Shown: positions 38,788-44,298 of the stretch, one piece after another | Layout of the letters: each line of letters starts with the position of its first letter | Numbering within the stretch: the stretch's first letter is position 1 | Notes under the pieces: generated by a model | Databases searched by the model: none | What the model was told of the DNA's origin: nothing | What the model saw: the letters and a program-made list of their open reading frames with translations, nothing else | From: Naumannella halotolerans | GTDB taxonomy: Bacteria > Actinomycetota > Actinomycetes > Propionibacteriales > Propionibacteriaceae | Assembly: GCF_004364645.1 (NCBI RefSeq) | Contig: NZ_SOAW01000001.1 | Span: 1,550,001-1,614,000, forward strand | Direction: 5' to 3' | Length of the DNA stretch: 64,000 bases | Program-made: the position numbers and the translations under genes

Positions 38788-38916
38788 GGGAAACTCCTTG
38801 CACGCTGCCCGGACATCCGGCTGATGCCCGGCACACGGCCGCCAATCCTAGCCGTCGGTGGACCAGCGATGCCCAACCGCCGCTCCGCCGGGCCCGCCGG
38901 GAGATCGCTCGGCGCT

Positions 38917-38954
38917 TTCGGCGAACGCCGAACTTCGCTGGCGCGTGCCAGACT
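38917..38954 (+). promoter_or_regulatory. Candidate promoter with 16-bp palindrome for the fbiC-like gene
   Basis: TTCGGCG-AA-CGCCGAA (38917-38932) is a perfect 7-bp-arm palindrome. A -10-like CAGACT (38949-38954) lies 7 nt before GTG 38962, and the matching -35 position (38926-38931) falls inside the palindrome. A repressor there would control the fbiC-like/monooxygenase pair. Confidence 0.45.
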
Positions 38955-38961
38955 GGGTCGG

Positions 38962-41328
38962 GTGACTCAAGCGCGGACACGAGTGACCGAGGCGGTACGC
39001 GAGACCCTGCAGACAGCCGTCGCCGGGGATGATCTCACCGCACACCAGGTGGAGACGCTGCTGCGGGCCGGCGGCGATGACCTGGACGCACTGCTGGACG
39101 CCGCCGGCGAGCTGCGGGACCGGGGCCTGGCCGAGGCCGGCCGTAGCGGCATCATCACCTACTCCCGCAAGGTCTTCGTGCCATTGACCACCTTGTGTCG
39201 CGACCGTTGTCATTACTGCGTCTTCGTCGACACCCCGGGACAGTTGCAAAAGCTGCACAAACCCCTGTTCATGTCGCCCGACCAGGTGCTCTCGGTGGTC
39301 GCGCAGGGACAGGCGATGGGCTGCAAGGAGGTCCTGCTGACCCTGGGTGACAATCCCGAGGACCGGTGGCCGCAGGCCCGGCAGTGGCTGGACGAGCACG
39401 GCCATGCCTCCACCATTGACTACGTCGCCGCCACCGCCGCCATGATCATCGAGCGGACCGGGTTGTTGCCGCATGCGAACCCTGGAGTGATCACTGCCGA
39501 AGGTTTCGCCCGCCTGCGTCCGGTGGCACCGTCGATGGGGATGATGTTGGAGACCACCTCACGTCAGCTCTTCGAGACCCCCGGCCAGGTGCACCACGGT
39601 TCACCGGACAAGGATCCTGCACTGCGGCTGCAGGTGATCGAGGACGCGGGCCGGGCCGGGGTGCCGTTCACCACCGGTCTGTTGATCGGGATCGGTGAGA
39701 CCGTCGCCGACCGGGCGGAGTCCCTGCTCGCCCTGCGCGAGCTGCACCGGCGGTACGGCCACATCCAGGAAGTGATCATCCAGAACTTCCGGGCCAAGCC
39801 GCGTACCGCGATGCGCGATGTCGCCGACGCCGAGTTCGGCAGCTACCTGGCGGCCGTGGCCACCGCCCGGATCGTCTTCGGTCCCGCGATGCGGATCCAG
39901 GTTCCGCCCAACCTCTCCGATCCGGCCGAGCTGGGGCTGCTGTTGCGAGCAGGGGCGGACGACTGGGGCGGGGTCTCCCCACTGACCGCCGATCACGTGA
40001 ATCCCGAACGCCCGTGGCCGCATCTGGACGAACTGGGCGCGCGTACCTCAGCACTCGGGTTCACCCTGCGGGAGCGATTGACCGCCCAGCCGGAGTACGT
40101 ACTCGACGCTGCGCGGTGGATCGATCCTGGGCTGCGACCCGCGGTCGCCGCCCTGGCCGACCCGCAGACCGGCCTGGCGAGGACTGGGCCGACCGATCGG
40201 CCACGGCCGGACCGACCGGGTGCAACCGGCACGGTGGCCTGGACCGGAAACGGCGCGAGCGAGGAGCTCGCCGATCTGCTCGGCCGGGCCGCAGCGGATC
40301 CGACCGCCCCGAGCGATGCCGACTGGGTACGGCTGCTGCAGACCGAGGGTGAGGAGTTGCAGCTGCTGACCGAGACCGCCGATGACGTCCGGCGCTACAC
40401 CGTCGGGGAGGCGATCTCGATGGTGGTCAATCGCAATCTCACCTCCACCGGCCTGACCTCCGACTCGTCGATGGACCCGAGCTCGTTCACCTTGGACCAG
40501 GTCGGCGAGATCGCCGCAGACGCCTGGCAGCTGGGTGCCACCGAGATCTGCGTCCAAGGCCTGTTGGGCGCCGAACGGGACCCCCTGGACTACCTGCGGA
40601 TCGTGGAGGCGATCAAACAGGCGACCCCCCGGATGCATGTCCACGCCTACCGCCCGGCCGATGTCGCTGATCTGGCGGCCCGCGGCGGTCTGGGCCTGGA
40701 CGGTGCGCTGCAGGCAATGCGGGAAGCGGGCGTCAACACCGTCCCCGGCACCGGGGTGAAGGTACTGAGCGAGCGGGTACGGCAGGCGATCGCGCCGGGC
40801 GACTGCGCGATCGCCGACTGGACCACGTCGATCATCGCCGCCCATCGGGCTGGCTTCGGATCCACCTCGGTCCTCTTCTACGGTCACGTGGAGGAGGCGG
40901 CCGAACGTGTGGCCCACCTGCGCGAGTTGCGGCGGATCCAGGCGCTCACCGGTGGCTTCAACGAGTTCGTACCGATTCCACTGCCGGGTCACCGCTCGTC
41001 GCTGGTGTCCGGTCGGAGCGAACTGGACGAACACCGGGCGATGGTGGCGGTCTCCCGGCTGCTGTTGTCGGGTGCGATCTCGCACATCCAGATCCCCTGG
41101 ACCCGGCTGGGCGCCGAGCAGTCGGCGGTACTCCTGGGATCGGGGGGTGATGATCTCGGTGGCACCCTGCTGGATGGCCGGGTACGGCCCCGCGCCGGGA
41201 TCGAGTACGGCCACGAGTTCCCACTGGCTCGCGGTGCCCAACTGGCCGCCCGCCTGATGCGCCCGTTCCGGCAGCGCACGACCGACTACCGCGAGCCCGA
41301 CCCGGACCGGAAGCTGCCGCTGCGATGA
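38962..41328 (+). CDS. FO synthase-like protein (CofG+CofH fusion) with inactive-looking CofH half
   Basis: A 788-residue FbiC homologue. FbiC makes the deazaflavin FO, precursor of cofactor F420, using two radical-SAM domains. The CofG half (about 60-400) keeps the cluster motif C79-x3-C83-x2-C86 (CRDRCHYC), APSMGMMLETTSRQLFET, GSPDKDPALRL, QNFRAKPRTAM and GGVSPLTADHVNPERPWP. The CofH half is recognisable by VVNRNL (488-493), MHVHAY, FYGHVEEAAERVAHLREL, GGFNEFVPIPLPG and DDLGGTLL. At 499, 503 and 506, where CxxxCxxC should be, it has Thr, Ser and Pro. No frameshift is seen. The second half probably cannot bind the cluster. GTG 38962 is preceded by CAGACT 7 nt upstream. The stop overlaps the next start (ATGA). 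Confidence 0.85.
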   Translation: MTQARTRVTEAVRETLQTAVAGDDLTAHQVETLLRAGGDDLDALLDAAGELRDRGLAEAGRSGIITYSRKVFVPLTTLCRDRCHYCVFVDTPGQLQKLHKPLFMSPDQVLSVVAQGQAMGCKEVLLTLGDNPEDRWPQARQWLDEHGHASTIDYVAATAAMIIERTGLLPHANPGVITAEGFARLRPVAPSMGMMLETTSRQLFETPGQVHHGSPDKDPALRLQVIEDAGRAGVPFTTGLLIGIGETVADRAESLLALRELHRRYGHIQEVIIQNFRAKPRTAMRDVADAEFGSYLAAVATARIVFGPAMRIQVPPNLSDPAELGLLLRAGADDWGGVSPLTADHVNPERPWPHLDELGARTSALGFTLRERLTAQPEYVLDAARWIDPGLRPAVAALADPQTGLARTGPTDRPRPDRPGATGTVAWTGNGASEELADLLGRAAADPTAPSDADWVRLLQTEGEELQLLTETADDVRRYTVGEAISMVVNRNLTSTGLTSDSSMDPSSFTLDQVGEIAADAWQLGATEICVQGLLGAERDPLDYLRIVEAIKQATPRMHVHAYRPADVADLAARGGLGLDGALQAMREAGVNTVPGTGVKVLSERVRQAIAPGDCAIADWTTSIIAAHRAGFGSTSVLFYGHVEEAAERVAHLRELRRIQALTGGFNEFVPIPLPGHRSSLVSGRSELDEHRAMVAVSRLLLSGAISHIQIPWTRLGAEQSAVLLGSGGDDLGGTLLDGRVRPRAGIEYGHEFPLARGAQLAARLMRPFRQRTTDYREPDPDRKLPLR

Positions 41329-42821
41329 GCGCCGACCGAGTGCCGGTGGTGATCATCGGTGCGGGATTCGCCGGTATCGCCTTGGCGATGCAGTTGCAGC
41401 GCAGCGGGTGGGACTCCTTCGTGATCATCGAACGGGGTGACTCGGTCGGCGGCACCTGGCGGGACAACCACTACCCCGGTGTCGCCTGCGATGTCCCGTC
41501 CCATCTCTACGCACTGCGCGATCATCCGAATCCGGACTGGTCGTCGATGTTCGCGCCGGGTGCGGAGATCCACCGCTACCTGCGCGCAGTCGTCGACGAG
41601 GAGGGCTTGGGCGAGCGACTGCGGCTGCAGACGACGATGTCGGCCGCCCGTTGGTGTACCGACCACTGGCAGCTCACCCTGAACTCGGCCGATGGGCGGG
41701 TGAGCGAACTGCGGGCAGACAACCTGGTGCTCGCCTGCGGGCGGCTGACCGAACCCCGCCTGCCCGAAGTGCCCGGCCTGGACAGCTTCGCCGGACCGTG
41801 GTTCCACACCGCCCGATGGGATCACCGGATCGACCTGACCGACGCGCGGGTGGGGCTGGTCGGAACCGGGGCCAGTGCGGTGCAGCTGCTCCCCGAACTG
41901 GTCCGAGCAGGCAGCCGGGTCCTGTTGTACCAGCGCAGCGCGGCCTGGATCATGCCCCGGCAGGGGCGCGACTACAGCCCCACCGAACGACGACGTTTCG
42001 CTGCCGGGAACGGCGTGCTCGAGCGGACCCGGGAACGACTCCTGGTCGAGGGCGAGGAGCGCTTCGCCTCCCGTTCGGGTGACCCGGTCGCTGCCGGTGC
42101 CGCGGCCGAGGTGGCCCGGGAGCATCTGCGGTCGCAGGTGGCCGATGCCGAGTTGCGCGCAGCACTGACCCCTGACCATGCCTTCGGCTGCAAACGGGTC
42201 CTGTTGTCCGATGAGTTCTACCCCGCGGTGGCATCGGACCGGGTCGAACTCGTGTCCTCGGCGTTGGCGGGCGTGGACCGATCATCCCTGATCGCCGCCG
42301 ACGGGTCCCGACGGGACTGCGATGTGCTGGTGCTGGCGACCGGATTCTGGACCACCCGACAGCCCTATGCCGAACTGGTGGTCGGTGAGCAGGAAAGATC
42401 ACTGGCCGATCACTGGGCGAGCGGCATGACCGCCTTTGCCTCGACCGTGGTCAGCGGGTTCCCCAACCTCTTCGTGCTGAATGGTCCGAACGCCTCCCTG
42501 GGCCACAACTCCTCGGTCCTGATGGCCGAGGAACAGGCCGGGTACGTGAGCCGTACCCTGCACCGGTTCCCCGGCGTCCGGCGGGTGCGGCCCAGCGCCG
42601 AGGACGCCTGGACCCGGGAGATCGCGATCGCCGCCGTGGACACACCATGGCTCCGGGGCGGTTGTCGCAACTGGTACGTCGACGAGCGATCCGGTCGCCT
42701 GACGCTGCTCTGGCCGGGCACCATCGACGATTTCCACCGACGGCTGCAGGCCGCCGACGGATCGGAGTTCGATCAGCTGCCGCGGGGACGATTCTCCCCC
42801 ACCGCCTCGATGGTGCCGTAG
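41325..42821 (+). CDS. Flavin-dependent monooxygenase, Baeyer-Villiger type
   Basis: A 498-residue class B flavoprotein. The FAD motif is VVIIGAGFAGIALA, followed by GGTWRDNHYPGVACDVPSHLY. The Baeyer-Villiger fingerprint region is FAGPWFHTARWD, the NADPH motif is GLVGTGASAVQLLPEL and VLVLATGFWTT follows. Such enzymes insert oxygen into ketones or oxidise N/S groups using NADPH and O2. ATG 41325 overlaps the stop of the FbiC-like gene by 4 bp, so both are translated from one mRNA. The substrate is unknown. A joint role with the deazaflavin-type protein is inference. Confidence 0.87.
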   Translation: MSADRVPVVIIGAGFAGIALAMQLQRSGWDSFVIIERGDSVGGTWRDNHYPGVACDVPSHLYALRDHPNPDWSSMFAPGAEIHRYLRAVVDEEGLGERLRLQTTMSAARWCTDHWQLTLNSADGRVSELRADNLVLACGRLTEPRLPEVPGLDSFAGPWFHTARWDHRIDLTDARVGLVGTGASAVQLLPELVRAGSRVLLYQRSAAWIMPRQGRDYSPTERRRFAAGNGVLERTRERLLVEGEERFASRSGDPVAAGAAAEVAREHLRSQVADAELRAALTPDHAFGCKRVLLSDEFYPAVASDRVELVSSALAGVDRSSLIAADGSRRDCDVLVLATGFWTTRQPYAELVVGEQERSLADHWASGMTAFASTVVSGFPNLFVLNGPNASLGHNSSVLMAEEQAGYVSRTLHRFPGVRRVRPSAEDAWTREIAIAAVDTPWLRGGCRNWYVDERSGRLTLLWPGTIDDFHRRLQAADGSEFDQLPRGRFSPTASMVP

Positions 42822-43081
42822 GCCGACGGTTCGTCGATCGCCATCGACAGCACGGGCACCACGCTCAGTTTGGACTCGTACCCCCCGAGGGCGCGCCGGT
42901 AGGAGCCCACGTCGGCCCAGCGGGAGGCGAGCACCCACAGCTCCGGTTCGTCGAGATTGCGCAGCAGATCGATCGACACAAGACCGGGCTTGTCGGACAG
43001 GACCTCGATCACCGTCGCCATCCGGGAATCGAACTCCGACCGCTGGGCATCGGTGACCCGGAACCGATTGATCACCAACAT
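42773..43081 (-). CDS. Antibiotic biosynthesis monooxygenase (ABM) family protein
   Basis: A 102-residue ferredoxin-like fold protein with LVINRFRVTDAQRSEFDSRM at the start, KPGLVSIDLLRNLDEPELWV and ASRWADVGSYRRAL. This is the ABM pattern of small cofactor-free monooxygenases or haem-degrading relatives. ATG 43081 has GAAGGGG 6 nt upstream. ATG 43087 has none. It overlaps the end of the convergent flavin monooxygenase by 49 bp. Substrate unknown. Confidence 0.8.
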   Translation of the reverse strand: MLVINRFRVTDAQRSEFDSRMATVIEVLSDKPGLVSIDLLRNLDEPELWVLASRWADVGSYRRALGGYESKLSVVPVLSMAIDEPSAYGTIEAVGENRPRGS

Positions 43082-43175
43082 CGGCATCCCCTTCGCGGCC
43101 CTCGGCTTTCCCGATGACCCTCGGCTCCTGGACCACCCTCGGTCTATTTGCCAACCCTCGGCTTCCCGCGACCCT

Positions 43176-43379
43176 CGGCTTCCCTCGAATCCTCGCCGAC
43201 CTCCGGCTTCCCTCGAATCCTCGCCAACCTCCGGCTGCCCTCAAATCCTCGCCGACCTCCGGCTTCCCTCGAATCCTCACCTCCGGTTCCTCGACGAAGC
43301 TCGACTTCCCGCCGACTCGGCTCCTCGGCGACCTCGACTTCCCGCCGACTCGGCTCCTCGGCGACCTCGACTTCTCGAT
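43176..43379. repeat. 28-bp and 33-bp tandem repeats
   Basis: Units of 28 bp occupy 43176-43203, 43204-43231 and 43232-43259, with a shortened fourth to about 43283. An exact 33-bp unit then repeats at 43300-43332 and 43333-43365, with part of a third to about 43379. Units abut with no spacers, so this is not a CRISPR array. They have no ribosome site and the reading frame is not conserved. Probably non-coding. Confidence 0.8.
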
Positions 43380-43403
43380 GACATCCTCACACAGTGGCAA
43401 CAA

Positions 43404-43497
43404 GACAAACGTCACACTCGATCCGATCCCGAGACACCCACCCTGCGCCATGACGCGCTGAACCGCTCCGGACCGCCGATCGAGTGTGACGCTTGTC
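43404..43497. mobile_element. MITE-like palindromic element, copy A
   Basis: Ninety-four bp bounded by 20-bp inverted repeats (43404-43423 and 43478-43497, 19 of 20 paired). The core contains GCGCCATGACGCGCTGAACC, shared with copies B and C. No coding capacity. The element is preceded by ACAGTGGCAACAA, also found before copy B. Confidence 0.7.
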
Positions 43498-43517
43498 CTG
43501 AGCGGCAGCGACCCGAC

Positions 43518-43770
43518 GCACTGGTGACCTCGATCCGGCAGGTGACTGGTCAGCACTGCACGAGGGCGGCAGCGGGACAGGCACAGCGGCAGCAAGGCAT
43601 AAGTCGGACAGTGGCAACAAGACAAGCGTCACACTCGATCCGATGCGGAGACACCCACCCCGCGCCATGACGCGCTGAACCACTCCTGACCGCCGATCGA
43701 GTGTGACGCTTGTCCTGCTGAGCGACCGAGTACCCCGGTGCACAACCGGTCGGCGATCAACCCAACCCCT
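43518..43770. repeat. Long dispersed repeat, first copy (contains palindromic element B)
   Basis: About 250 bp that closely match 44054-44298. It starts GCACTGGTGACCTCGATCC and ends GATCAACCCAACCCCT. It includes element B (43621-43714), whose 20-bp terminal inverted repeats are perfect. No gene is seen. The unit looks like a duplicated non-autonomous element. Confidence 0.75.
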
Positions 43771-44053
43771 CGTCGACGACCCATCCGACTGCCCGCGACC
43801 GATCCGCGACCACGTCGCCAAGTGCTTCGGGTTGTTGTCGACGGCAACGGACCACGGTGACGGTCCGGCCGTGGGCATCTCATCACCCAGGCACCAGCGA
43901 TTCGGACTCGCACGACACCGACGATCCGACCCGCCCGCAGGAGTCGGTCTCACCGTGGCAGCAAGACAGACACACCAGCGGTGATCTGGTGACGGTGCTG
44001 CTCCTGGAGCGTCTGCCCGCAACCTTCTCGCCGACCGTCGCCAGTCTCTGATC

Positions 44054-44298
44054 GCACTGGTGACCTCGATCCGGCAGGTGACTGGTCAGCACTGCACGAG
44101 GGCGGCAGCGGGACAGTCACAGCGGCAGCAAGGCAAGCGTCGGGCAGCGGCACAAGACAAACGTCACACTCGATCCGATCCCGAGGCATACACCCCGCGC
44201 CATGACGCGCTGAACCGCTCCGCATCGAGTGTGACGTTTGTCTTGCTGAGCGACCGAAGACCCCGGTGCACAACCGGTTGGCGATCAACCCAACCCCT
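44054..44298. repeat. Long dispersed repeat, second copy (contains palindromic element C)
   Basis: Second copy of the 43518-43770 unit with point changes and small deletions. Element C (44156-44242, 87 bp) has 19-bp perfect inverted ends. Another TGACGTTTGTCTTG fragment of the inverted end lies just after it (44298-44311), about 60 bp before the Zur box of znuA. Confidence 0.75.

Follow-up and report, generated by a model that had tools for sequence, protein, structure and literature searches.

What does an FbiC-like protein do once the radical-SAM cluster motif of its CofH half has gone, and is the organism that carries it still able to make F420? According to a 2021 review, all F420 producers studied make FO by a universal mechanism that relies on two SAM-radical domain enzymes (PMC8498797). 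The question is raised by a gene of Naumannella halotolerans, found in a stretch of 64,000 nucleotides (contig NZ_SOAW01000001.1, positions 1,550,001 to 1,614,000) that is referred to throughout, at its full length, as the window and that supplies the numbering used here (Table 1). GTG at 38962 is the likely start of this gene, judging from the numbering of an earlier account made from the letters alone (the sequence-only reading) and from the frame, which is open as far as the TGA stop at 41326-41328, just as that account had described; the open stretch as translated (38857-41325) is 823 residues long. Scored whole, the protein reaches 465 bits against CofG (cut-off 213), 306 bits against CofH, under the cut-off of 374.1, and 917 bits against CofGH, under the cut-off of 1018. 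It resembles the FbiC/CofGH family (NCBIfam NF006687, TIGR03550, TIGR03551) in being a two-barrel fusion with a cluster motif in the CofG half, in the NRN anchor and the QG, PGT, YG, GF-E and GxxDxGG motifs that its CofH half keeps, and in having F420 genes close by at some of the loci. It differs in having a CofH half without CxxxCxxC, in falling below both the CofGH and the CofH cut-offs, and in the gene for a Baeyer-Villiger monooxygenase (BVMO) that adjoins it. The CofG half, with its [4Fe-4S] motif in place and a score above the CofG equivalog cut-off, is intact, as had been claimed.

Table 1. Features of the FbiC-BVMO locus, in window coordinates.
Feature	Position	Strand	Basis
FbiC-like gene, fusion of an intact CofG half and a degenerate CofH half	38962..41328	+	profile scores, sequence
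CofG radical-SAM half	39157..40146	+	451.5 bits vs cut-off 213.35
CxxxCxxC of CofG half, intact, CRDRCHYC	39196..39219	+	sequence
Degenerate CofH half	40315..41295	+	262.7 bits to CofH vs cut-off 374.1
VVNRN anchor kept, cluster loop deleted or replaced	40423..40479	+	alignment
Arg codon of HAYRP (HAFRP in the alignment)	40651..40653	+	Arg in 69/69 degenerate, Ser in 38/38 intact
Putative BVMO gene, 4-base overlap (ATGA) with FbiC stop	41325..42821	+	sequence, profiles
Type I BVMO fingerprint, FAGPWFHTARWD	41787..41822	+	sequence
Lys-Arg of GCKR	42192..42197	+	aligned to KR of steroid monooxygenase 4ap3

The nature of the loss was established by aligning 69 degenerate with 38 intact CofH halves, the remaining 11 of 118 loci falling outside the alignment through an unmatched pattern or truncation (seven of these scored degenerate with a BVMO). 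The sequence-only reading had set Thr499, Ser503 and Pro506 in the places of the three cysteines; these are not the positions that align with them, and the stretch from the second cysteine onward is a gap in 86-99% of the alignment's degenerate halves. The cluster loop is deleted or replaced, and not altered by three point substitutions. Window positions 40423-40479 read VVNRNLTSTGLTSDSSMDP, and VVNRNLTSTGLTSDSSMDPSSF lies in the CofH half at the place of the cluster-bearing stretch of intact proteins. The absence of CxxxCxxC itself is confirmed: from 40315 to the end there are two cysteines, in TEICVQG and PGDCAIA, and so three at cluster distance are not to be had elsewhere in the half and the cluster site has not been relocated within it. 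Among the degenerate halves, 65 of 69 have one cysteine after the anchor and four have two. As its cluster ligands are absent, the degenerate half is not expected to perform radical cleavage of tyrosine with SAM, and as the defining cluster motif was sought and is missing, the degenerate FbiC is not classed as a member of CofH.

Outside the loop, the half is partly kept and partly remodelled. Flanking CofH motifs remain, in line with the earlier account: N-R-N, G-A-x-E-x-C-x-Q-G, H-x-H, P-G-T, Y-G, H-L, G-F-x-E, Q, W and G-x-x-D-x-G-G each occur in at least 90% of both sets, the conservation of N-R-N being partly by construction because alignment rows were chosen by an NRN-like pattern. The second motif is indeed altered, with QGLLGAERDP in the window against QGGIHPDLP in the intact consensus. 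The degenerate halves have lost the cluster loop and, among other residues, the second G of QGG and the PGTAAEI Glu; newly fixed are the Arg that replaces Ser in HAFRP, a Glu for Asp after YGHV, a Gly for Glu in LLDG and a Pro for Arg. The first three of these degenerate-only residues suggest a changed active site. An AlphaFold2 model of the degenerate half built from five rows (pLDDT 81.3) predicts a barrel of the CofH/MqnE type, with aminofutalosine synthase MqnE (PDB 6xi9/6xig) as the closest solved fold (6xig, TM 0.78, 23% identity). MqnE was also the sole match of the degenerate-half sequence profile in the PDB, a search that returned no CofH structure. Unlike the degenerate half, which has lost the cluster loop, MqnE is a radical-SAM enzyme.

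Such a loss might be an assembly error or the mark of a decaying pseudogene, as the missing motif itself could suggest and as could a CofG-half frameshift in one locus; its distribution leaves that explanation practically no probability. A scan of a genome collection with the degenerate half returned four loci, from Microbacterium suaedae, M. stercoris, M. oleivorans and an unclassified Actinomycetes MAG, which are 51-63% identical to the window half and in none of which the CofH cysteines are present. The loss is common to these four relatives and to about 70 further genomes, which rules out chance and sequencing error. In the family of M. suaedae at least 93 of 398 genomes match the degenerate half (E 1e-30), and in the window's class at least 272 of 394, the degenerate ones including a second family of the window's order, although with up to five candidates scored per genome in both scans absence counts for less than presence. 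From the class set 20 loci were read among the 272 matching genomes (six high scorers and 14 others), and the 118 FbiC loci comprise these, the window, L014-L017, a further 92 from the Microbacteriaceae set and one from G009; some genomes carry two labels (G197 and G735, to judge by their identical matches), and no locus is counted twice. The degenerate half also matches 73 plasmid records, each at less than 60% identity; judged by annotation, all ten of the plasmid matches listed are either named FbiC or unannotated.

On an unrooted FbiC tree of 55 loci (alternate loci supplemented by selected ones), a single branch with support of 100/100 parts 36 degenerate from 19 intact sequences. The direction is taken to be loss, since the motif is generally present in CofH. 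FbiC as a trait of the window's own family is rejected, because clear matches occur in only two of 197 genomes (N. halotolerans itself and G009) and five others are weak and partial; together with the placement of the window FbiC among Microbacteriaceae sequences, this near absence suggests that the gene was gained horizontally. By a counting method applied to nine close pairs, the CofG half has a dN/dS of 0.02-0.13; the corresponding ranges are 0.09-0.21 in the BVMO and 0.10-0.32 in the degenerate CofH half, and intact CofH gives 0.04-0.15 over four pairs. The degenerate half is under selection, somewhat looser than intact CofH and clearly kept. Sharing across loci (77 of 118 as scored), a single tree branch and purifying selection thus refute error and decay. 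The idea of a maintained pseudo-enzyme domain, in the sense of one that is no longer radical-SAM, is supported by the clade-wide loss, by purifying selection and by the modelled barrel fold. In the frameshifted locus (L139) the shift seems to lie near the start of the CofG half; the rest is conserved and a BVMO is present.

What the sequence-only reading had missed is the neighbour. A BVMO gene stands beside FbiC on the same strand in 75 of the 77 loci scored as cluster-less, as against none of 41 intact loci (Fisher p 9e-30, a figure that overstates independence because common descent makes the loci dependent). Both exceptions have particular features: in L084 the contig ends 64 bases past FbiC, and another contig of that genome has a BVMO of the FbiC-adjacent clade (L174) at its start; L153 is a truncated frame, and what is left of it looks by eye like the intact type. 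The BVMO as the usual neighbour of any FbiC is rejected on the count for intact loci, seven of which have less than 3 kb of contig downstream. FbiC and BVMO lie an estimated -10 to 120 bases apart in 46 loci; in the other 29 the distance is 364 to 901 bases. On a tree made by a quick method, BVMOs of FbiC loci are parted from 18 homologues without FbiC within about 5 kb (SH-aLRT 100), and FbiC and BVMO protein distances are correlated with r 0.86 (n=73), to which host relatedness contributes a share, a value not approached in any of 2000 permutations (maximum 0.21). The link between degenerate CofH and BVMO is well supported. Cluster loss and BVMO gain each look like one origin, and the association may be one event in many descendants.

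The wider BVMO family does other things, since relatives occur without FbiC or away from an intact one. Among 26 Microbacteriaceae genomes with an intact FbiC, at least five carry a BVMO match at E 1e-60 away from FbiC (best 574 bits), a scoring limited to three candidates per genome in which absence is weaker than presence, and the two of these five placed on the tree (L173, L176) fall outside the FbiC-adjacent clade. A BVMO score alone was rejected as a marker: homologues without an FbiC match reach 685 bits and some FbiC-adjacent BVMOs score lower. The tree does separate the two groups, with one exception: L157 in G377 scores 703 bits and falls inside the FbiC-adjacent clade despite having no FbiC match; it sits on a 3.2 kb contig of a genome in which CofG was not found, perhaps an incomplete assembly. 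In 27 loci, excluding the window (L106, L092 and L068 are examples), a gene resembling alpha/beta-hydrolases lies between FbiC and BVMO; none was found in intact loci, using a profile whose 12 seeds are all among its own 27 matches. Inspected by eye, L068, L094 and L095 lack the nucleophile-elbow serine, while L076, L079-L081 and L108 have a shortened core; L081 also has the gene in one open frame with the BVMO.

The adjoining gene encodes a flavin monooxygenase of 498 residues (Pfam FMO-like). Its best solved relatives are phenylacetone monooxygenases in a single-sequence search (E about 1e-53), and steroid, cyclohexanone and phenylacetone monooxygenases in a profile search. The window protein has the full pattern FxGxxxHxxxW[PD], which we take to be the type I BVMO fingerprint, as do 42 of 69 members of the clade; 25 deviate from it in the last P/D only, and in two it is broken. 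It also has the Arg after Lys in GxKR, presumably the catalytic residue in phenylacetone monooxygenase, and G[CTAS]KR and FxGxxxHxxxW are each found in 67 of 69 BVMOs. On the fingerprint and the KR pair, the product is a putative type I Baeyer-Villiger monooxygenase. Like phenylacetone and steroid monooxygenase (PDB 1w4x, 4ap3), it would have an FAD/NADPH-type fold, to judge by sequence; unlike them (542 and 549 residues) it is shorter, and it belongs to a clade of its own that is tied to fbiC and whose members are 39-64% identical to the window BVMO (15 members). The structure model of the BVMO was poor (pLDDT 50.5) and no structural use was made of it. Neighbouring genes of the loci gave no clue to a substrate. 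A minus-strand frame at 42773-43087, which converges on the BVMO gene and overlaps the end of it, encodes a small protein of the ABM type (antibiotic-biosynthesis-monooxygenase). Downstream of the BVMO, window positions 43143-43377 and 43391-44298 contain tandem repeats (28 and 33 bases), after which come scattered direct and inverted copies some 25-110 bases long.

Does the host make F420? The window's genome has CofC (108.7 bits, cut-off 105), CofD (368 bits, cut-off 257) with an adjoining frame recognised by eye as CofE-like (L217), and an F420-dependent glucose-6-phosphate dehydrogenase (711 bits, cut-off 420). With CofC, CofD, a CofE-like frame and an F420-dependent enzyme in one genome, the organism carries the gene set of an F420 producer, and production is predicted. 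More widely, CofD is over cut-off in 40/40 degenerate and 20/20 intact genomes and in 5/20 without an FbiC match, and the dehydrogenase in 34/40, 17/20 and 6/20 respectively. In the stretches fetched around the loci, leaving out the window and L153, CofC-like, CofD-like, CofE-like and dehydrogenase-like genes number 24, 21, 16 and 35 near 75 degenerate loci and 21, 23, 14 and 14 near 41 intact ones. The earlier suggestion that the protein relies on a separate CofH is not supported: none was found in the window's genome, which is 100% complete by the tool's figure, and a second CofH is over cut-off in just one of 71 degenerate genomes in one set (G675) and none of four in another, leaving 74 of these 75 without one. 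G675 (loci L180 and L215) has both a degenerate FbiC with a BVMO and, elsewhere, an intact FbiC.

These counts bear on two further explanations. The first, which takes up the sequence-only reading's option of a different product, is that the hosts carry an F420 variant, the BVMO oxidising FO or an intermediate of it to give a different deazaflavin. The residues fixed only in degenerate halves suit a new substrate as well as they suit a new mechanism; the presence of CofD in every degenerate genome scored, and of the F420-dependent dehydrogenase in most, points the other way, and a modifying enzyme would leave the cluster-less CofH step unexplained, making this account distinctly improbable. 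The second is that FO is imported, the CofH half surviving as an inert scaffold for CofG and the BVMO as a passenger of the operon. Six Microbacteriaceae genomes (L209-L214, from G206, G216, G221, G223, G225 and G209) carry CofD, over cut-off in five and in two pieces under it in the sixth, and neither CofG nor CofH was found in them; life on imported FO therefore looks possible in Microbacteriaceae, and the six are candidates for FO import or for another FO route. Near their CofD lies a frame that is CofC-like by eye, and in some a CofE-like one. However, these six genomes have lost both halves, as import predicts, whereas here both FbiC halves are under selection and the BVMO follows the loss in nearly all loci; for the organisms with a degenerate FbiC, import is very improbable.

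The reading that we favour, and consider rather probable, is that degenerate FbiC and BVMO form FO between them by a CofH step free of radical chemistry, the BVMO being the likely replacement for CofH chemistry. On genomic grounds, a BVMO-linked route in place of the CofH radical step has strong support. The earlier proposal that the protein does only the CofG step is probably right as regards radical chemistry and is incomplete in leaving out the monooxygenase. Normally, as the 2021 review outlines it, CofH couples a tyrosine-derived p-hydroxybenzyl radical to ribityldiaminouracil at its double bond, with oxidation following (PMC8498797). Phenylacetone monooxygenase is described as converting phenylacetone to benzyl acetate, that is, an aryl-CH2-ketone to a benzyl ester (PMC3404926). 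From such established chemistry we infer a possible scheme: 1) the BVMO, with FAD, NADPH and O2, would act on an aryl ketone derived from tyrosine, in all likelihood 4-hydroxyphenylpyruvate, and place an oxygen next to its carbonyl to give a 4-hydroxybenzyl ester (4-hydroxybenzyl oxalate); 2) the carboxylate, oxalate, would leave the ester to yield p-quinone methide; 3) inside the former CofH barrel, bound 5-amino-6-ribitylaminouracil would attack the p-quinone methide through its C5, giving an adduct that by our own reckoning would have the formula of the normal CofH product (precursor + C7H6O); 4) the intact CofG half would cyclise this adduct to FO with SAM, and CofC, CofD and CofE would then build F420. 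4-Hydroxyphenylpyruvate is the transamination product of tyrosine, and p-quinone methide is a good electrophile for C5 of an electron-rich uracil. In this detailed form, with the radical-SAM barrel now a non-radical C-alkylating enzyme fed p-quinone methide by the BVMO from 4-hydroxyphenylpyruvate, and FO arising in several actinobacterial families from a radical step plus an O2-dependent one, the scheme is held tentatively and falls somewhat short of probable. The route would explain why barrel, anchor motifs and CofG are kept where the cluster and SAM-type motifs go, and why a ketone oxidase that uses O2 is found where the cluster is lost.

Several observations count against the scheme: the hydrolase-like gene of 27 loci has no place in it; G675 keeps an intact FbiC too; of the 69 BVMOs, 25 lack the last P/D of the fingerprint and two more have a broken one; and in six of the 40 degenerate genomes scored no F420-dependent glucose-6-phosphate dehydrogenase reaches the cut-off. 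The relaxed last residue also means that activity may have drifted from classical Baeyer-Villiger oxidation. A BVMO-like flavoprotein might then supply the 4-hydroxybenzyl unit by other chemistry, such as N-oxygenation or oxidative cleavage of tyrosine, or action on 4-hydroxyphenylacetaldehyde, with the CofH barrel still joining the unit to the uracil. The same evidence of FbiC-BVMO linkage would apply to this alternative, which we nevertheless think unlikely, given that FxGxxxHxxxW and the GCKR-type motif are each retained in all but two of the BVMOs and that the nearest solved relatives are Baeyer-Villiger enzymes.

A joint, radical-free CofH step by degenerate FbiC and BVMO would amount to a new variant route of F420 biosynthesis, in which a large natural group appears to swap a radical site for an oxygenase; the near-universal BVMO neighbour suggests an undescribed, oxygen-dependent route to F420 in some actinobacteria. 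In a literature search with preprints outside its scope and subscription papers thinly covered, none of the entries listed mentions, in its title or the opening of its abstract, a BVMO taking part in F420 biosynthesis or an FbiC lacking the CofH motif, which is a weak indication of novelty. Annotation that requires an intact FbiC would misread strains with a degenerate one. If true, the proposal would be a clear-cut instance of flavin/O2 chemistry taking the place of radical-SAM chemistry on an unchanged protein scaffold, may open the way to a radical-free first step for F420 in production hosts, and would explain F420 in aerobes that lack an oxygen-sensitive CofH.
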